The notes beneath the pieces were generated by a model, which saw only the letters and a list, made by a program, of their open reading frames with translations, did not search any database and was not told where the DNA came from. Of a DNA stretch of 34,677 bases, positions 4,624-15,659 are shown piece by piece; the stretch's first letter is position 1, and the number at the start of each line of letters is the position of its first letter. The stretch is from an uncultured Candidatus Berkelbacteria bacterium. Lineage in GTDB: Bacteria > Patescibacteriota > UBA1384 > 2-12-FULL-50-11. Where the stretch lies: assembly GCA_903839975.1 (NCBI GenBank), contig CAIMEH010000031.1, positions 1 through 34,677 on the forward strand, read 5' to 3'. The position numbers and the translations under genes were made by a program.

Positions 4624-6678
4624 CTATCTATTTGTGGATCTTCTTGGCTGAGTGACGCCAACGGAGAATGTTTTACTAGTAACTTTGTTATTGGCCTGTA
4701 GAACTAAAGTTACGCCGTAGGTACCGCCAGCTAAAGGCGTAGCAAGCTTAAAATCTACAGTGCGGTTTGATCTGACGATAGCTGGAGCTGAAGTTGTAGA
4801 GCTAGTAAATAAGGTTTTTAAACTACTTCCAGATCCAGATGTAACGGTTATACCAACGCTAATCTGGTCTGGAATGTTAGTAGTAAAGCCAATTGTAAGT
4901 GTGCTAATTGGGGCAGTTAGCTTTCCTCTAGTAACATTATTACCGTTAACAGTATATCCATAAATGGCCGGTGCTGGATTTGGAATAACTGGTATGTTAA
5001 GTCCTGAGCTGTCTGGGAAAGAATACATTGATGAATCTCCATCATTGGCATCCTCAAGAATTGGAGATCCCGCAGGACAGGTAGATGGTTTCGAGCCAAG
5101 TCCCCAGAAATAGTAGCCGTCACCATCTCGGTCTGTGCAGGTTGCTTGGTGAGAAAGATCTCTTGGATAATATGGCTCAGTTGCAAAGCGAAACTCTAAT
5201 ACTGCCTGATCGTTTAGTACTAAATTTGCAAATCCGGCGTTGGAGCCAGTTCCGCCCCAATCAGTTCCCCAACTATTCTTAACGTGCCAGATTACGTTAT
5301 TGGAAGCGTCAAGCTCGTAGCCAACTATAGACAAGAAGTGATTTATCTGAGGTTTGACATAGACAGTAATCGGCCCTCTTTGAATAAGAAGTTTGATCAA
5401 AGTATCTGCTGAAACCTGACCAGGATAGCTACTGCCACCAGATATCCTAATATGATTAGCTGGGTCAGTAACAGAGCTTTTGTTGTCTCCGCCGACGCCA
5501 GTATTTGGGTCTTCAGCCTCTGTTAAAACATCGTTTCCCATAGCATAGTTATAGACATTATTTGAAAATCCCCCCTTGCAAGCACTGGCCCAGGTTATGC
5601 CAAATTCTCTGAATGAGAAGCTGCCAATCATCTGTTGTTCAGAGAGGTCTCTAGCTATTGGTTCGTTGAATTGAATGTTTGTAATGGCTTCGATTGAGGC
5701 GATTGAAGCGAATGCCCAACAGCTGGAGCATAAGTTTCCTTGATCTTTAACAGGTGTAATAAAGTTAGCTCCATCCCAATTTCTCCAGTCAAATGTTTTT
5801 GGTAATGTACTGGTCGTTGAAACTGAGTAGGAATTTTTAAATCCAAGATTCCAATCCTTCGCCCAATCGTTGCTGACTGGAAATATTCCGCCGTCGTAGT
5901 ACATAAAAGCGTTGGAAGTGGACGATAATGTAGGGTCGCCGCCGGTAGAATCTATTAACTGCTGATATGTTAGATCGGTTAAGCTTGTTCTACCAGCAGT
6001 AAAACCGGCAACAGAAGTGGAAGATGTGGTTGAAGTTGCTCGAGAAGAGGCAACTGCAGGAACAACCTTATTCATTACGTCATTAATGGCGCTAGCTGTC
6101 TTATTAGTGTAATCAACTTTTGTAGCTGAAAGAGCTAGCCCTAAAATACCGCCACCAACGGGCTTTAAGTCTTGGGCTTTTATTGCGGGTACGAGTGCTC
6201 TGGTAGCTTGTTCATTGATATGCTGCTTGGTGATTTGCACTGTACTGCCGTCAGCAGTTTCCCATCTTAAACCAATAGGCTGCACGTCTGGTAGTATGCT
6301 TGTTTCAATAGCTGAAGAATTAAAACTAAAGGTGGTTGAGCCCCCAGTTAGGTTGAAATTATTATAAACCAGATAATTCACCTGCTTTCCCTTTGAATAG
6401 CCCAATAATATAACTCTAACGGCGGAATCTGGTCCAGAAAATGTTCCGGTACCATCAACAGAAAAGCTTGTTAAATCGCTTGTTGTAGTCGTGAATGGAA
6501 CGTCGTGCTTAGTTATAGTTTGGGCAAGGTCATTTGTCTGGGCGTTGTTAGTGGTTTTCAAGGCGTTTACGGGATGTTTGTACAGATAGCAACCGCCACT
6601 AATTATAATAATAAAAGCCAGAATGCCAATTAGGAACTCGTATTTTTCTTTGACTGGGATATGTTTAAAATTCAGCAT
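4624..6678 (-). CDS. Membrane-anchored papain-like (C1A) cysteine peptidase with DxDGDG-type and C-terminal Ig-like regions
   Basis: N-terminal TM; DWRNW…VKDQGNLCSSCWAFASIASIEA (Cys), NHFLSIVGYELD (His), VKNSWGTDWGG (Asn); CTDRDGDGYYFWG…EDANDGD motif. Confidence 0.88.
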   Translation of the reverse strand: MLNFKHIPVKEKYEFLIGILAFIIIISGGCYLYKHPVNALKTTNNAQTNDLAQTITKHDVPFTTTTSDLTSFSVDGTGTFSGPDSAVRVILLGYSKGKQVNYLVYNNFNLTGGSTTFSFNSSAIETSILPDVQPIGLRWETADGSTVQITKQHINEQATRALVPAIKAQDLKPVGGGILGLALSATKVDYTNKTASAINDVMNKVVPAVASSRATSTTSSTSVAGFTAGRTSLTDLTYQQLIDSTGGDPTLSSTSNAFMYYDGGIFPVSNDWAKDWNLGFKNSYSVSTTSTLPKTFDWRNWDGANFITPVKDQGNLCSSCWAFASIASIEAITNIQFNEPIARDLSEQQMIGSFSFREFGITWASACKGGFSNNVYNYAMGNDVLTEAEDPNTGVGGDNKSSVTDPANHIRISGGSSYPGQVSADTLIKLLIQRGPITVYVKPQINHFLSIVGYELDASNNVIWHVKNSWGTDWGGTGSNAGFANLVLNDQAVLEFRFATEPYYPRDLSHQATCTDRDGDGYYFWGLGSKPSTCPAGSPILEDANDGDSSMYSFPDSSGLNIPVIPNPAPAIYGYTVNGNNVTRGKLTAPISTLTIGFTTNIPDQISVGITVTSGSGSSLKTLFTSSTTSAPAIVRSNRTVDFKLATPLAGGTYGVTLVLQANNKVTSKTFSVGVTQPRRSTNR

Positions 6679-6740: not shown

Positions 6741-7502
6741 TTACGGGGTGGCGAAGGGATTCACGCGGCCGTAAGTGCCCTGCTTGGTGGCATCTGGGGT
6801 AACGGCGTAACTCTGAACGGCAGCAAATAATTTGGTGGTTTTATCAAGGAAAGCCGGATCGCTGCCGGTGAATTCTGTTGATCCGGCGGCCTTAGAGAAT
6901 ATCTGGGCGGTTACCGAAGTTGTTGGTGCGCCACTAGTGCTAGTGATTGTAATGGTTGTAACTTTATTCCATCTGGCAAATGTCTTTAGCTTGGCTAATA
7001 AAGTTTGGGTGGTAGGGTAATCCATGGTGCCAGTTAAGGTAAATGTAATGGCGGCACCGGCGCTGCCGTTTACTATAGGTGCCGAACTGACTGTGCCAGT
7101 TTGGGTAATAGGCTGGGCTCCGTTGGCATTTGTTGCCGAGCTGGCCGATGAGGCTGCAGCAGCAGATTGGAATGGGGCAGTTATGGTTGCGCCCGTAAGT
7201 CCGATACTGTTAAGCATGCCACGCAGCTGCAGAACCAAATCTTCTGGGTCGGTGGTGGTTGGCAGGGCGATATTAGCCGATGAATACAGGCTAGCAACGG
7301 CATCTTTTTTACCATTTAACTGGTTCAGAATATTTAAATGCTGTTGCTGCTGATCGATTTGGGTATTTAATTCGGAAATCTGGCTGCGATTATCTTGAAA
7401 AGCGCTAAGTAATGGCGGATAGGCTAGCCAAATTGTACCGACACCAACAACCAAAAAGATAGAAGTGGTAATCCAGAAATAGGTATTTTTTAATAGGCTC
7501 AT
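6741..7502 (-). CDS. pilO: Type IV pilus PilO-like inner-membrane protein
   Basis: N-terminal TM then coiled coil (SQISELNTQIDQQQQHLNILNQL); position after pilN. Confidence 0.7.
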   Translation of the reverse strand: MSLLKNTYFWITTSIFLVVGVGTIWLAYPPLLSAFQDNRSQISELNTQIDQQQQHLNILNQLNGKKDAVASLYSSANIALPTTTDPEDLVLQLRGMLNSIGLTGATITAPFQSAAAASSASSATNANGAQPITQTGTVSSAPIVNGSAGAAITFTLTGTMDYPTTQTLLAKLKTFARWNKVTTITITSTSGAPTTSVTAQIFSKAAGSTEFTGSDPAFLDKTTKLFAAVQSYAVTPDATKQGTYGRVNPFATP

Positions 7503-8032
7503 TGTGTCTTAGATCCAAAAGTTATTGTGAAAGTGTAAACCAAGCCTTTGTCGCCCTTAGTCTCGGTTAGGGCGGTCATTGTTACGTTGGAGAAATTTTT
7601 CTCGGCTGTTAAGCGCTGTTTTAGCAGTATCGCCGAGAGCTGATCGGTCGTTTGACCGGAGAGTTCGAGGTTGCTGCTGTCGGTTAATTTAAGCGAAGTT
7701 AGCTGGACGTCGGTTGGTATATCGCCGGCGATTGTGCCTAGTGTTGCGCTCCAATCGGCTTTTTCTTGGTATCTAGTACTGGCAGTAAGCCTATCTTCCA
7801 AAAATGCCGCTTGCTTGGTGATGTCGGAGCCTTTCTGCTGCTGCGATACCAGGCTTTGCAGATCGCCCTGTTTGTTGCCGATATCCACCTGTTGCATATA
7901 GTTAAACGTGGCCAAACCGGCGGCGCCCAAACCAAGAACGGCGATAACTATTAAATAAATCACCGAAATACCGTAGGCCTTGGTTGAGGCGTGGTATTTT
8001 TCCTTAACTTCTTTAGGTAAAAGATTAAGCAT
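7499..8032 (-). CDS. pilN: Type IV pilus PilN-like protein
   Basis: MLNLLPKEVKEKY start, single TM, PilN-like LTSLKLTDSSNLELSGQT; overlaps pilM. Confidence 0.8.
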   Translation of the reverse strand: MLNLLPKEVKEKYHASTKAYGISVIYLIVIAVLGLGAAGLATFNYMQQVDIGNKQGDLQSLVSQQQKGSDITKQAAFLEDRLTASTRYQEKADWSATLGTIAGDIPTDVQLTSLKLTDSSNLELSGQTTDQLSAILLKQRLTAEKNFSNVTMTALTETKGDKGLVYTFTITFGSKTQ

Positions 8033-9212
8033 TTAGTCCCCTCATCGCTAATCCAATACTACCAGTAAATGTGCGGGCTAGATCGGGCTTGATGGGGTAG
8101 TGGTCGATATCAACGTTTTTCAGCGGGTTGCCCAAGCTAGTTGGCAGGCCCATTTGGGTTTGGAAAAGGTCGGCGATGCCTTCGATGTTAGAGCCACCAC
8201 CAGATAAGATCAGTTCCACGATCTTGTTGCCGGGGCAGATTCTGTTCTCGTAGAATTTGGTGACGTGCGAAAGCTCGTCGAAGATCGGGCCGGCCAAGCC
8301 CTTGAAATCTTCCAGTTTCATTAGTGGATGAGCACCGGGGGCGTGAACGCCGATCGGCACGGCTGAAGTTAAGCGAAGCGAATTTCCTTCTGTAACCATA
8401 ACAATAGTGGTGTTGGCGCTTAGCTCCACGATTAGGCGCATCTTGGCGTCACTCGGGGCGATAGCTCGGGCGATGGCACCAGATTTAATATCGATACCGG
8501 CAATCTCCAGGTGGGTTAATTCGCCTAGGTCTACAACAGAATCGATTAAAGTTTTCTTTGCAGCCACGGCAAAAACAGCGGTCTGTTCCATCTTGGTGCC
8601 GGTAGTTTGGGGTAGATCAAGATTTATCGGTACAGCTTTCGGTTTCTCCTTAACGATCCCGCTCTCGATTGGAGATTTTTCTTCTGAAACTGGTGGCATA
8701 CTAGCAACTGGTGGCTGACCGGATCTTATAGATGGTTTGGCATCGCCGTCGCCATCAGTGTCTTTAATCTCTTGGCCGCTACCGCTATCGACGCTCATCT
8801 TGTGTTCGGCGCCCAAAATTGGTCGGCAGGCGCTGTTAGTGAGCTCATAATCGATTGAGTACTCGTCTAAATCTATGGAAAGTTTCTCGGCGATCTCGAA
8901 GGGTAGCGACTGGGTCAGCTCTTTTTTGCTTAAATTTGGCACCGAAAATGTACCAGAGAAAACGGCGGATTCTGGCAGTGACATCATTACTTGCTTGCCG
9001 CTGATGGCGTGAGGTTTGGCGCCACGGAAAGCCTCGTGAATTACTTTGGAGATCTCTTCTTGGTTCTTCAGCTCGTCGGCGGACCAAGAAGCCTCGGGAA
9101 TTGAGGCGACATTTAAACCGATTAAATTAAATTTGTCCGCGCCCTTTTTCTCCAAGGCGATGACTTTTACCGCTTCATAGGCAATATCGATACCGACAAT
9201 TACTTTCCCCAA
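8025..9212 (-). CDS. pilM: Type IV pilus PilM-like ATPase with a long low-complexity insertion
   Basis: VGIDIAYEAVKVIALEK…ELILSGGGSNIEGIADLFQTQMGLPTSLGNPL actin-like fold motifs; TTG start preceded by AGGAGGG. Confidence 0.85.
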   Translation of the reverse strand: MGKVIVGIDIAYEAVKVIALEKKGADKFNLIGLNVASIPEASWSADELKNQEEISKVIHEAFRGAKPHAISGKQVMMSLPESAVFSGTFSVPNLSKKELTQSLPFEIAEKLSIDLDEYSIDYELTNSACRPILGAEHKMSVDSGSGQEIKDTDGDGDAKPSIRSGQPPVASMPPVSEEKSPIESGIVKEKPKAVPINLDLPQTTGTKMEQTAVFAVAAKKTLIDSVVDLGELTHLEIAGIDIKSGAIARAIAPSDAKMRLIVELSANTTIVMVTEGNSLRLTSAVPIGVHAPGAHPLMKLEDFKGLAGPIFDELSHVTKFYENRICPGNKIVELILSGGGSNIEGIADLFQTQMGLPTSLGNPLKNVDIDHYPIKPDLARTFTGSIGLAMRGLNA

Positions 9213-9248: not shown

Positions 9249-10457
9249 CTAGCCGCCAAAGTTCTGGACCAGACCGTAGATTGGCTGTAGCACGGCGATG
9301 GCAACGAAGGCCACGCCGATGCCCATGATTATCAGCATTACAGGTTCAAGCAGAGTAGAAAGGTTCTTGGAGTTGGTGTCCACTTCTTTATCGTAGAAGT
9401 CGGCAATCTCAACAAACACACCTTCGAGTGAGCCGGATTCTTCACCCAGACTGGTAAGCTGCGAGACCATCGGCGGAAACAAAACTTCTTTTTCCAAGGC
9501 TGCGGATAATGCCTTGCCGGATTCAACTGCTTTCTCGATTCGATCAAAAGCCAAATCGTAGTGATAGTTGTTGATGGTTTTGCGAATTATTTTTATCGAG
9601 ACCAAAATCGGCAGACTGGCTTTGGTGAGCATTGCCATAGTTCGGGAGAAACGAGCCATATAGACTTTTTTGGTTAAGGTTCCGAAGACCGGAATTTTAA
9701 TCTTGAGCTTATCATAAAATGCTCGGCCACTTGGTTTAGCTACCCAATAACGGAAACCAATATAGGCACCTGCGAGCAAGGCGATAACTATTAAGAAATA
9801 ATGGCGGATAACGTCGCTAACACCGAGCAGTAGTCGAGTAGCGAACGGTAGTGTCGTGTTAGAGTCGGCGAAGACAGTTGTCAAATTTGGCAGAACGAAG
9901 AAGACGATCAAGATAACTACGCCAACCAGGGCTAGCAAGATGACAGCAGGGTAGATCATGGCTGATTTTACTTTCGAGATCAGGTCGGCATCCTTCTCTT
10001 GTTGTTCGGCCAAATTCATTAAAACTTCGGCTAACTGACCGGTTTGCTCACCTGCTTTAACGACGGCGATATAAATTTCCGGAAAAACTTTTGGATACTT
10101 GGCCAGGGCTTTTGATAAGGTTCGGCCGCCTTTTATCTGAACGATAATGTCGCGGATTACTTCTTTGAAGTACTGGCTCTCTGTTTGTTTGGCAAGAGCT
10201 TCCATAGCCTTAACGATCGGCAGGCCTGCTTTGGTCATAACTGAAAGCTCTCGGGTAAAAATAATCTTATCTTTGAACGGCACTTTTTTGGTGAAATTTT
10301 TTAGGCTAAATGGTAGGCCGTGTTCCTCGGTTAATTTGAGAATACTAAAGCCTTCCGCGTGAAGTTTTTTTGAGGCTTCGCCCAAGGTCTCAGCCTCGAT
10401 TTTGCCTGATTGTATCTTGCCGCCGTGCGGACGGACGGTGTAGCTAAATGTGGACAT
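9249..10457 (-). CDS. pilC: Type IV pilus PilC/GspF-family platform protein
   Basis: FTRELSVMTKAGLPIVKAMEALAKQ… and second T2SSF repeat MAMLTKASLPILVSIKII…LEPVMLIIMGIGVAFVAIAVLQPIYGL. Confidence 0.93.
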   Translation of the reverse strand: MSTFSYTVRPHGGKIQSGKIEAETLGEASKKLHAEGFSILKLTEEHGLPFSLKNFTKKVPFKDKIIFTRELSVMTKAGLPIVKAMEALAKQTESQYFKEVIRDIIVQIKGGRTLSKALAKYPKVFPEIYIAVVKAGEQTGQLAEVLMNLAEQQEKDADLISKVKSAMIYPAVILLALVGVVILIVFFVLPNLTTVFADSNTTLPFATRLLLGVSDVIRHYFLIVIALLAGAYIGFRYWVAKPSGRAFYDKLKIKIPVFGTLTKKVYMARFSRTMAMLTKASLPILVSIKIIRKTINNYHYDLAFDRIEKAVESGKALSAALEKEVLFPPMVSQLTSLGEESGSLEGVFVEIADFYDKEVDTNSKNLSTLLEPVMLIIMGIGVAFVAIAVLQPIYGLVQNFGG

Positions 10458-10567: not shown

Positions 10568-12454
10568 TTAGTCTTTGGTTACTCGCCAGACTTCTTCCAG
10601 AGTGGTGAGGCCATCAAAAACTTTTAGTAGGCCGTCTTGGCGCATGGTAATAAAGCCTTCTTTCTGAGCCTCTGCGAAGATATCGCTGCTGGTGGCACGC
10701 TTGAGAGCGAGTTGTTTAATAGGTTCGGTAACGCCCAAAATCTCGAAGATACCGATTCGGCCTTTGTAACCGGTGTTGCCACAAGCACTACAGCCCTCGC
10801 CTTGGTAGAACTTAAAGTTTTGTTTGGCCTGGGTTTTTTCTGGCTCGGGCAAGGCATCTAAATCCTTAGCCAAAAGCGCAGTTTCTTCGTCTTTGAGAGT
10901 AATTTCTTTACGGCATTTGTCGCAAATCTGGCGGCAAAGACGTTGAGCAATAACGGCGTTGGTACTGGAGGTAATCAAGAACGGCTCGATACCCATATCG
11001 AGCAAACGGGGGATAGCGCCGGCGGCATCGTTGGTGTGCAAGCTGGAAACGACGATATGACCTGTTAGAGCGGCATTAATAGCGATATCAGCGGTTTCTT
11101 TGTCGCGAATCTCACCGACCATAATAACGTCTGGATCCTGACGCAAAATCGAGCGCAAACCGTTGGCGAATGTGTAGCCGATCTTAGAGTTTACCTGGCT
11201 CTGGTTGACGCCGGTCATACGGTACTCGACCGGGTCTTCCATAGTAATAATATTGATGCCGTCGCCCTTTATCTTACTGATAATGGCGTAGAGCGTTGTT
11301 GATTTACCCGAACCGGTTGGGCCGGTAACTAAGGTCATGCCGTGGGCTTTTTTGGTGTTGTCTTCAAGAATTTGCAGGGCGCGGCCACGCAAGCCAAGCT
11401 GTTCGAAAGTTAGCGTGCCCTTGGAGTGATCCAAGACACGAGCAACTACTTTTTCACCTGTAACAGTAGGAATCGTGGAGATACGAAAGTCCACGTTATT
11501 GCCGTCCATCAGAACCTGGATACGGCCGTCTTGAGGTAGGCGAGTCTCGTCGATTTTAAGGTTAGACAATATTTTTATACGAGAGATAAGGCTTGATTGA
11601 ATCTCTTTTGGCAGCGTTAAAACTTTGCGCAACACACCGTCAACACGGAAACGAACCAAAACAGCTTCTTCACTTGGTTCAATATGAATATCCGAGGCTT
11701 TCTCGCGGACAGCTCTTTTTAAAAGGGTGCTTATTACTTTGGCAGCTGGCGAGGCTTCGTCGGCATCTTCGTCACGAGTCTGTTGATCTTTCTCCTCGAC
11801 TGGAGTTATCTCCTCGGTGTCGTCGCTGGCAAGCATCTCTTTCATCTCTGATTGCAGGGCTGAGTACTGGTCTAGGGCATAAGACATATCTTCGTCAGTG
11901 GTAATAAACGGTTTCACAATCTTGCCGGTGATCTTGCGAATGGCGTTGAAGGCCTCTTCGTTTTCTGGGTCGGTCATAGCCACGGAAAGTGTTTTATCCT
12001 CGAGTAAAAATGGCACAGACTTGTATTTTCGGGCGATTGGCTCTGGAATCAAAGAAAGAATTGGCTTGGGGATGGTCTTACCGTTGAGCTCTATAAATTG
12101 GACGTTACTCTCGGTGTTTCTGAGTGTTCCAACGCGGAAGATGCTGCTTGAATTGTCAGTTTTGACCGGAGCTGGTTTAACGGCCTGGTTTGGGGCAGGA
12201 TAAGGCTGAAAATTTGGGACGACTGTTGGTTCAAGGTCGATATCTTGTTGTTTACCTCCCAGTTTGGCGGTAACTTCGCGCTCGGGGAGCTGGATTAACT
12301 GAAATTTGCCCAGCGGTTGAATATCTACAACTTTACCGTCCCGGATTCCCGAGGTAATCGAATCTGTTAGCGCTTTCAAATAAGCCCGACTTTTGTACGT
12401 TGGTACACCAGTTTTTTTGCTTATTTGTTTAATAACATCAATAGTAACGGCCAA
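10568..12454 (-). CDS. pilB: Type IV pilus assembly ATPase PilB/GspE with an N-terminal HU/IHF-like domain
   Basis: GPTGSGKSTTLYA, EDPVEYR, LRQDPDVIMVGEIRD, CRQICDKC…CSACG; residues 1-95 resemble HU; TTG start with AGGAGGG SD. Confidence 0.92.
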   Translation of the reverse strand: MAVTIDVIKQISKKTGVPTYKSRAYLKALTDSITSGIRDGKVVDIQPLGKFQLIQLPEREVTAKLGGKQQDIDLEPTVVPNFQPYPAPNQAVKPAPVKTDNSSSIFRVGTLRNTESNVQFIELNGKTIPKPILSLIPEPIARKYKSVPFLLEDKTLSVAMTDPENEEAFNAIRKITGKIVKPFITTDEDMSYALDQYSALQSEMKEMLASDDTEEITPVEEKDQQTRDEDADEASPAAKVISTLLKRAVREKASDIHIEPSEEAVLVRFRVDGVLRKVLTLPKEIQSSLISRIKILSNLKIDETRLPQDGRIQVLMDGNNVDFRISTIPTVTGEKVVARVLDHSKGTLTFEQLGLRGRALQILEDNTKKAHGMTLVTGPTGSGKSTTLYAIISKIKGDGINIITMEDPVEYRMTGVNQSQVNSKIGYTFANGLRSILRQDPDVIMVGEIRDKETADIAINAALTGHIVVSSLHTNDAAGAIPRLLDMGIEPFLITSSTNAVIAQRLCRQICDKCRKEITLKDEETALLAKDLDALPEPEKTQAKQNFKFYQGEGCSACGNTGYKGRIGIFEILGVTEPIKQLALKRATSSDIFAEAQKEGFITMRQDGLLKVFDGLTTLEEVWRVTKD

Positions 12455-12549
12455 TTTCCCTCCTATTATTTAGAATACCAAAATATCCAAGCTTGCGAGC
12501 AAAAATCTCGTGACAATTGGGGTTAATTGTGGCATGGTCAAAAACGAAG

Positions 12550-14091
12550 ATGAGTTCACTCTACCGCAAGTACCGTCCAGCCAATTTTACAGAGGTAATT
12601 GGCCAGGATCATATCAGTGAAAATATCAAAAATTCTTTGAAGAAAGGCACGGTCGGTCATGCCTATTTATTCTCTGGGCCGCGTGGAACAGGTAAAACAA
12701 CACTTGCTCGCTTGTTTGCTAAAGCAGTTAACTGCCAGAGCCCGATTGATGGCATCGAACCATGTGGCAAGTGCGAGATTTGTTTAGAGATGGCTAATGG
12801 CAGCTTAGTAGATATTATCGAGATTGATGCCGCTTCCAACCGAGGCATTGACGAGATTCGCGAGCTACGTGAACGCGTGGCTTATGCACCAAGTCGAGGA
12901 AAATACAAAGTTTATATTATCGACGAGGTTCATATGTTAACCAAAGAAGCCTTTAATGCATTATTAAAAACCCTGGAAGAGCCACCGGCGCATGTAATTT
13001 TTATTCTAGCCACAACCGAGCTCCATAAGGTTCCAGATACGATTATTTCCCGTTGCCAGCGCTACCAATTTCATCGAGCGGGTGACGAATCGCTGCGCGA
13101 GTTACTCAAGAAAGTTGTTAAACAAGAAAAAATTGGTCTCGATGACGAGGCGATAGAGGTAGTTGTCGCTAGGGCAGAGGGTTCGTTCCGCGACGCTTTA
13201 ACCCTGTTAGGCAACGTTGCCAGTCAAGATAAAAAACTTGATGCCGCTATGCTACGAGAACTGTTGGGAATGCCGGAAACGGCCACAATTGAGATTGTTC
13301 GCGCGTCATTAACAGGCAAGGATTCAGACAAACTTATGGCCACTCTGCGTGAATTTATTAACGGTGGTGGCGATATAATTGTTCTGGTAAAAACTTTAAC
13401 AGACCTTTTAAAGAAAGAGATATTGGATGGTAGCTCCAAGCAGCCATACGTCATATATGACGTATGGCTGCTTGAGCAGCTGCTTGTTGTTCTAGCACGT
13501 GTTCGTGGTTCGGCCGATCCGACAGCGTTACTACTAGCAAAGCTCTACGAGTTGGCTTCCATCGGCCAAACACCTCAACCGACTGAGGTGTTTAAGACCA
13601 TACCTGTAGTTGAACAGGCTAAGCTTTCTGCTCAAGAAGTAGTAAGGGCAGTACCCGTAGTAGAGCAAGTTCCAGAGCCACCAACAGTATCAGACATACA
13701 AAAGCCCGCCGAGATTAAAATTGAAGAAGCTCCGGTTGCTGTCGACGCTGTTTCACACCCAGTAAAATCGGAAGGTTCTGATGAATTCTGGAATTCGTTC
13801 TTGGTTGAAATTAAAGAAGTGAACCACGCAATCTATGCCGTTTTGCGCTCGGCCGAGCTGGAAAGCTTACTTGAAGACAAGATGATTACGGCCGTTAAAT
13901 TCCGTTTTTACTCGGAAAGACTTTACGAGCCAAAAAATCGTAAACAAATAGAAACAGCGGCCAGCAAGGTTGCTGGCCGAGCGATAAGTCTAGAGTGTCA
14001 CGTCCGAACCGACGTGAAGCTTTCACCCGAGGTGAAAGCCGAAGAAGATCTCGTAGGCGCAGTCGTCGACGTTTTTGAGATTGAGGGTTGA
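12550..14091 (+). CDS. dnaX: DNA polymerase III subunit gamma/tau
   Basis: MSSLYRKYRPANFTEVIGQDHI…GPRGTGKTTLARLFAKAVNC…CGKCEIC…EIDAASNRGIDEIRELRE. Start 12550 preferred over 12517. Confidence 0.93.
   Translation: MSSLYRKYRPANFTEVIGQDHISENIKNSLKKGTVGHAYLFSGPRGTGKTTLARLFAKAVNCQSPIDGIEPCGKCEICLEMANGSLVDIIEIDAASNRGIDEIRELRERVAYAPSRGKYKVYIIDEVHMLTKEAFNALLKTLEEPPAHVIFILATTELHKVPDTIISRCQRYQFHRAGDESLRELLKKVVKQEKIGLDDEAIEVVVARAEGSFRDALTLLGNVASQDKKLDAAMLRELLGMPETATIEIVRASLTGKDSDKLMATLREFINGGGDIIVLVKTLTDLLKKEILDGSSKQPYVIYDVWLLEQLLVVLARVRGSADPTALLLAKLYELASIGQTPQPTEVFKTIPVVEQAKLSAQEVVRAVPVVEQVPEPPTVSDIQKPAEIKIEEAPVAVDAVSHPVKSEGSDEFWNSFLVEIKEVNHAIYAVLRSAELESLLEDKMITAVKFRFYSERLYEPKNRKQIETAASKVAGRAISLECHVRTDVKLSPEVKAEEDLVGAVVDVFEIEG
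13437..13474. repeat. Perfect 38-bp palindrome inside dnaX
   Basis: CAAGCAGCCATACGTCATATATGACGTATGGCTGCTTG equals its reverse complement. Confidence 0.95.
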
Positions 14092-14285: not shown

Positions 14286-15659
14286 ATGGCCAAAAGTGAA
14301 TTACTAGGGAAAATACCGCCGCAAAATATAGAAGCCGAGGCAGCTGTACTCGGTGCAATCTTGGTAAACAAAGAGGCTATGGATAAGGTTGCCGACGCTG
14401 TTGGCGATAAAGATTTTTACCGCTCTGATCACCAGATAATTTTCCGAGCCATTCTGCGACTCTACGACAAACGAGCGCCAATCGACTTAGTAACGCTCAC
14501 CAACGAGCTAGACGGTTTAAAACAGCTTGATCACGTTGGTGGGGCGGCCTATTTAGCAACTTTAGTTAACTCGGTGCCAACGGCCATTCACGTTACTCAT
14601 TATGCCGAGATTGTTAGGCAGAAAGCGGTGTTGCGCCGAATTTTGGCGGCCGGCCAAAAAATATCCCAACTTGGCTACGAAGAGGACAGGGAAGTTCAGC
14701 AGATTCTGGATGAAGCTGAAAAGGCAGTTTTTGAGGTCTCTCATGAATTGGTTAAAGACAACTTTATGCCAATCTCCGACATTCTGGCCACTAGCTTTGA
14801 TAGAATTGACCGTCTACACCGAGAAAAAGGTTTGCTTCGCGGTGTTACTACTGGCTTCAAACAGTTAGATAATCAACTGTCAGGTTTCCAAAATTCAGAC
14901 TTAATTATTTTGGCCGCCCGCCCTTCGATGGGAAAAACTACTTTTGCCTTGAATCTGGCCCTTAATGCTGCCACCAAAGGTAAGGTTCCGACCGGTTTCT
15001 TCTCGCTAGAGATGAGCAAAGAGCAGGTGGTGGATAAGCTTATCTGTGCCCAAGCGATGGTTGACGGTTGGAAGCTTCGCACCGGTAACCTGAGCGAGGA
15101 TGATTTTCCGGCCATCGGTATGGCGATGGGAACTCTGGCCGAGGCCCCGATATTTATCGACGATTCACCAGGTTTGACGATTTTAGAGATTCGTACTCGT
15201 GCTCGTCGCCTAAAAGCCGAACATAACTTGGGGCTAATGGTTGTAGATTATCTGCAGTTAATCGACGGTGGTTCTGGCGCTAATGCCGACAACCGTGTTC
15301 AACAGGTTTCTGAGATCTCTCGTAACTTGAAGGGTATCGCTCGTGAGCTGGATATACCTGTTATTGCCCTGTCACAGCTTTCTCGTAACGTGGAAAATCG
15401 CGATAAGAAAACGCCGCAGCTTTCCGATTTGCGCGAATCTGGTTCTATCGAGCAAGACGCTGATATTGTTATGTTCCTATTTCGAGAGGACTACTACGAC
15501 CGTGAAACAGAACGCAAAAATATTACTGATCTACTGATTAGAAAGCACCGTAACGGCCCGATAGGCGAGGTAGAGCTTCACTTCCGCCCAGAACAGAGCC
15601 GCTTCTTCGACATTGAGCGAAAAGCCAAACCAGCGTCCAAGGTTTCTCATGAGGAGTAG
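14286..15659 (+). CDS. dnaB: Replicative DNA helicase
   Basis: IPPQNIEAEAAVLGAILVNKEAMDKV…AARPSMGKTTFALNLAL…VVDYLQLI…SDLRESGSIEQDADIVMFLFRE. Confidence 0.97.
   Translation: MAKSELLGKIPPQNIEAEAAVLGAILVNKEAMDKVADAVGDKDFYRSDHQIIFRAILRLYDKRAPIDLVTLTNELDGLKQLDHVGGAAYLATLVNSVPTAIHVTHYAEIVRQKAVLRRILAAGQKISQLGYEEDREVQQILDEAEKAVFEVSHELVKDNFMPISDILATSFDRIDRLHREKGLLRGVTTGFKQLDNQLSGFQNSDLIILAARPSMGKTTFALNLALNAATKGKVPTGFFSLEMSKEQVVDKLICAQAMVDGWKLRTGNLSEDDFPAIGMAMGTLAEAPIFIDDSPGLTILEIRTRARRLKAEHNLGLMVVDYLQLIDGGSGANADNRVQQVSEISRNLKGIARELDIPVIALSQLSRNVENRDKKTPQLSDLRESGSIEQDADIVMFLFREDYYDRETERKNITDLLIRKHRNGPIGEVELHFRPEQSRFFDIERKAKPASKVSHEE

Follow-up and report, generated by a model that had tools for sequence, protein, structure and literature searches.

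The type IV pilus extension ATPase (PilB) encoded in the analysed window, a 34,677-nucleotide stretch of DNA from an uncultured Candidatus Berkelbacteria bacterium, carries, as judged from its sequence, a genuine N-terminal HU domain. HU is the bacterial histone-like DNA-bending protein. Subdomain matches indicate that the HU domain replaces ND0, the sensor subdomain of the motor, and a PilB tree indicates that the fusion (hereafter HU-PilB) is of single origin. Its carriers are tiny uncultured bacteria, Candidatus Berkelbacteria and relatives among the Patescibacteria. Many bacteria of the CPR depend on hosts, which they hold by means of pili. ND0 is an input port of the pilus motor, where the known inputs are c-di-GMP and partner proteins. 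No report of HU-PilB, or of a histone-like domain of single origin placed at this port in 16 families, was found in the open literature searched. HU-PilB offers a link between nucleoid and pilus that can be put to the test in CPR bacteria.

The PilB gene spans positions 10568-12454 of the minus strand in the ORF list of the window, starts with TTG (12454-12452) and encodes 628 residues (Table 1; families, genomes, contigs and loci are cited below by f, G, C and L labels). The initial annotation had described the N-terminus of PilB as HU/IHF-like, and profile and structure searches confirm this. The Pfam HU model PF00216 matches residues 6-86 with 32.9 bits (7.5e-8) when the domain is isolated and with 28.4 bits in the full protein, and both scores exceed the gathering cut-off of 22.4 bits. 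A phmmer search of the PDB with the HU domain retrieved HU/IHF chains only (best E 0.012). Two AlphaFold2 models of the head, which are of low confidence (pLDDT 56-59) and derive from a thin 6-row alignment, feature the element order H-H-E-E-E-E-E. Every match that Foldseek listed for these models in the PDB (best E 2e-5) is a member of the HU/IHF superfamily. HU domains are also built into larger proteins in the HU-HIG/HU-CCDC81 group (PF18291, PF18174 and PF18175), but the window domain scores 24.3 bits against HU-HIG (PF18291), below the cut-off of 26.2. The partner domains of these families are, to our knowledge, unrelated to pilus motors; no relevant paper was found on HU-CCDC81.

Table 1. 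Coordinates of the PilB domains and of the neighbouring genes in the window.
Feature	Position	Strand	Basis
Start codon TTG (12452-12454); Shine-Dalgarno AGGAGGG (12458-12464)	12452..12464	-	kept in seven family members
HU domain, PilB residues 6-87	12194..12439	-	PF00216 above cut-off; PDB and Foldseek matches HU/IHF only
ND1 subdomain (MshEN match, residues 117-201), PilM-docking part in homologues	11852..12106	-	PF05157, 63.1 bits; PMC8389850
N2D and ATPase (T2SSE), residues 231-624	10583..11764	-	PF00437, 443.4 bits
pilC (platform), next operon gene	9249..10457	-	PF00482; GspF/PilC models
pilM	8025..9212	-	PF11104
pilN	7499..8032	-	PF05137
pilO-like gene	6741..7502	-	position; weak GspM similarity (NF040576, 22.5 bits, cut-off 60); syntenic in L137
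dnaX, divergent neighbour kept across the clade	12517..14091	+	TIGR02397, 399.9 bits; synteny
dnaB-like replicative helicase, conserved next neighbour	14286..15659	+	named from its sequence; ORF, synteny

A mis-set start or an unconserved head would have undermined the HU assignment. All seven HU-PilB members of the family share a Shine-Dalgarno sequence directly before the start and an N-terminal (M)AVT, so the PilB start is not mis-set. The head is conserved too, as mean pairwise identity within the family is 59% in the HU domain and 30% in the linker behind it, with 72% in ND1 and 77% in the motor. An artefact, be it a mis-set start, an assembly join or a chance resemblance, is further contradicted by the recurrence of the fusion in independently assembled genomes that span many genera and families, by the single HU-PilB clade and by the score above the Pfam cut-off, and we consider its probability negligible.

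Behind the HU domain, the initial annotation had seen a normal PilB. This holds for ND1 (MshEN), the Walker motifs and the zinc cysteines, but ND0 (MshEN_N) is absent. In the T2SSE domain, Walker A, Walker B, the catalytic Glu, the His box and the zinc CxxC pairs are all intact. HU-PilB thus resembles PilB/MshE/GspE extension ATPases (PF00437, TIGR02538, TIGR02533) in having ND1, N2D and an ATPase with these motifs, as well as an operon with pilC, pilM and pilN, and differs from them in the HU domain that stands in place of the ND0 sensor. The window protein scores below the cut-offs of the PilB and GspE equivalog models (TIGR02538 and TIGR02533). ND0, a helical subdomain, is missing in every HU-PilB, and every PilB examined from outside the HU clade carries it, including the sister row (L185) and rows left out of model building (L119, L120, G005, L190 and L208), HU-less class members among them. 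Vibrio GspE likewise has no ND0 (PMC8389850), and the absence of ND0 is therefore no bar to PilB/GspE membership. In MshE, ND0 binds c-di-GMP, and in related structures a PilM homologue binds ND1 (PMC8389850, PMC11656802). Since HU-PilBs have lost ND0 and kept ND1, HU has stepped into the ND0 position, and the docking subdomain has stayed. The head may serve as an assembly module, as the annotation had also suggested, but hardly as a simple PilM dock, since the PilM-docking ND1 is separately retained.

HU-pilB is followed in the operon by pilC, pilM, pilN and a pilO-like gene. In other families, pilin-like ORFs are often found between pilC and pilM. Throughout the clade, HU-pilB is divergent from dnaX-dnaB. 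The fusion occurs in 7/8 genomes of the window's family. In the exception (G005, locus L213, G005:C3), an EPSP-synthase-like gene adjoins dnaX directly, and the whole intervening pilus operon is therefore missing.

The presence of HU-PilB in relatives, raised as a question by the initial annotation, was borne out within the class, in which an HU domain is found at the pilB gene in 38 of the 56 genomes and 16 of the 25 families. Working HU-PilBs are present in 22 of the 38 genomes. The arm is gone in three (f11 and f21), the motor is dead in three (f22), HU is joined to a presumed motor relic in eight (f18, f19 and f23), and the gene is split in two. The split gene forms two overlapping frames in G029 (L206) and lies at a contig end in G010 (L225). 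Most HU-PilBs of the class, the window protein included, score above the PF00216 cut-off. Searches with a domain profile and a full-length profile revealed no HU-PilB outside the class among the matches listed for 389 genomes of the phylum, although rare divergent cases may have escaped these lists. The HU matches listed there lie in ORFs of about 90-185 aa, and none of the PilBs listed there carries HU. The three outside candidates of broadest coverage (G214, G367 and G180) were inspected and turned out not to be HU.

Family f4 has the same operon and a PilB without HU. In a PilB-core tree, obtained by a quick search and in which dead-motor rows form long branches, HU-PilBs, dead-motor forms and f4 make up one clade (SH-aLRT 95). 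On this tree, the distribution of HU takes two changes: the domain was gained once and was lost once, completely, in f4.

A free HU-like protein of the window family (G000:C19:12750-12917, with homologues in G001-G004, G006 and G007) is armless, as are those in G043, G044 and G027. The frames are 68-90 aa long and match PF00216 positions 1-56 or similar. No other free HU-like protein turned up in these genomes, and the sole full-length HU of the window family sits on PilB.

HU-PilB heads resemble HU/IHF proteins (PF00216) in their core pattern, in an arm of HU length in most lineages and, as far as the low-confidence models of the window head go, in their fold. They differ in being fused to a pilus motor, and the window arm has neither the NP tip nor a positive charge. 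The observation in the initial annotation that the arm is less basic than in classic HU is thus correct, as the window arm has a net charge of -2, the tip LGGKQQ and no intercalating proline. Mean arm net charge is +8.3 in free HU proteins of the class, +7.1 in the HU proteins with presumed motor relics (orphans), +4.0 in dead-motor forms, +2.4 in working and armless HU-PilBs taken together and +2.1 in the window family. Individual orphan arms (f18, f19 and f23) range from +5 to +12. The proline tip is kept in f14-f17 and f22-f25, with arm charges of +4 to +9 in f14-f17, f22, f24 and f25, and is lost in the window's family. The f2 arms are acidic (-3 to -6), and in f11 and f21 the arm is absent from proteins whose motors look intact. 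The two-helix core and the GxGxF turn are kept in all HU-PilBs while the arm varies. DNA contact is therefore no universal function of the working motor, given the acidic f2 arms, the armless f11 and f21 and the net charge of -2 in the window. The simplest reading of these data is that the head probably had a DNA-contacting origin, and that affinity was lost or weakened in some lineages, including that of the window, and kept in the orphans.

In the reading that we propose, and to which we assign even chances, the ND0 slot would be filled by a dimeric HU module through which the motor can hold on to chromosomal DNA or sense it, and in the window family the module would act mainly at the protein level. 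An ancestor within this CPR class would have swapped the ND0 of a type IV pilus extension ATPase for HU. Because the ND0 slot binds c-di-GMP in some other PilBs, HU would sit where regulatory input enters, at the flexible N-terminal end of the hexamer. As HU proteins are dimers, neighbouring subunits could pair, giving up to three HU dimers per hexamer. At its origin, the head probably contacted DNA, so that the motor could hold or sense the chromosome. In the window family, a weak affinity for DNA would be expected because the intercalating proline is gone from the arm together with most of the charge, and the head may mainly dimerise or bind a partner. Dimerisation, DNA contact and the regulatory role are all inferred. 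As far as its sequence shows, the f4 motor works without HU, which speaks against the proposed reading.

A possible but less probable alternative is that the HU fold is purely a protein module, whose function is to join PilB subunits in pairs or to engage another protein of the pilus (PilM, PilN or the free armless HU), with no DNA bound in any working HU-PilB. The constant core and turn favour this alternative, as do the variable arm, acidic in f2 and missing in f11 and f21, and the role of ND0 in other PilBs as a protein- or c-di-GMP-binding part (PMC8389850, PMC11656802). It accounts poorly for the basic arms with a proline tip that seven or more families carry, for the strongly basic arms of the orphans and for the separate retention of ND1 as the PilM dock.

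Proteins in which the motor is dead or lost form, together with working HU-PilBs, a natural experiment on the use of the HU head. In f22, neither the two Walker motifs nor the His box nor the catalytic Glu region survives in G045 and G046; in the third protein (G048), Walker A remains in part and the Glu region is still present, and Walker B and the His motifs are lost. In f18, f19 and f23, the gene product is reduced to 250-320 aa, consisting of HU and a C-terminal part. PF00216 scores are over the cut-off, at 31-48 bits, in these proteins (seven scanned of eight). When whole orphan proteins were compared with the HU-PilB profile, only HU aligned. The C-terminal part aligned colinearly with PilB N2D in f23 (P about 1e-5 to 1e-7, one comparison) and weakly in f18 and f19 (P about 3e-4 to 2e-3, probability 10-17%), and column-shuffled controls yielded no alignments. 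There are good indications of an N2D relic, clear in f23 only; f18 and f19 look like relics on the grounds of synteny and the HU head. No pilC was found beside the relics at the 8 loci inspected. PilC copies in the relic genomes, some of which are incomplete, are 28-37% identical to the window PilC, and those of working operons are 39-48% identical. With no adjacent pilC, and no PilC above 37% in relic genomes, the HU head therefore outlives the pilus machine at this locus. The series from working motor to dead motor to motor gone suggests that the HU head may be useful apart from pilus extension. A further step, which we put forward only tentatively and hold to be rather doubtful, is that the head is an envelope-chromosome link on the motor and was freed in four families into a new chromosomal protein, composed of HU and a dead or truncated motor and mostly encoded beside dnaX.

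The position of the gene has led us to weigh another explanation, in which HU-PilB and the orphans bind and control the short divergent dnaX-pilB region and the orphans are kept for that purpose. The divergent arrangement is kept across the clade, and 7/8 relics are still divergent from dnaX. However, HU usually does not read sequence, and the synteny may be plain inheritance, as it is kept in f4, which has no HU, and the relic of G039 is some 11 kb away from dnaX. We deem this local regulation unlikely.

Type IV pili drive DNA uptake in many bacteria, and the head could conceivably handle incoming transforming DNA at the pilus base, a link to uptake that the initial annotation had put forward. 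However, profile search and synteny revealed no pilT in the HU-pilB operon, and the orphans have HU without a pilus platform. In Nanosynbacter lyticus TM7x (Saccharibacteria), which has two pili, the one without pilT (T4P-2) is used for binding the host and contributes to neither motility nor competence (PMC12206443). A role in uptake is thus not supported and appears very improbable. The two loci look alike in gene content, since T4P-2 too is the second pilus locus of a CPR bacterium, has the genes pilB-C-M-N-O and lacks pilT. Both also lie next to DNA genes, recAX in TM7x and dnaX-dnaB here. No mention of an HU head was found for T4P-2 (PMC12206443).

Another pilus machine is encoded in the window genome on contig C27, with a 784-aa PilB, a PilT (TIGR01420, 458 bits, cut-off 319) and a PilC, and a third PilB/GspE-like ATPase is encoded on C20. 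The presence of two machines recalls the two pili of TM7x. The C27 PilB (L121:6026-8377, G000:C27) features a long pre-motor region with weak matches to PilB profiles. Directly downstream of the pilO-like gene and in the direction of the operon, the window encodes a membrane-anchored papain-like cysteine protease (4624-6678, minus strand; PF00112, 101 bits).
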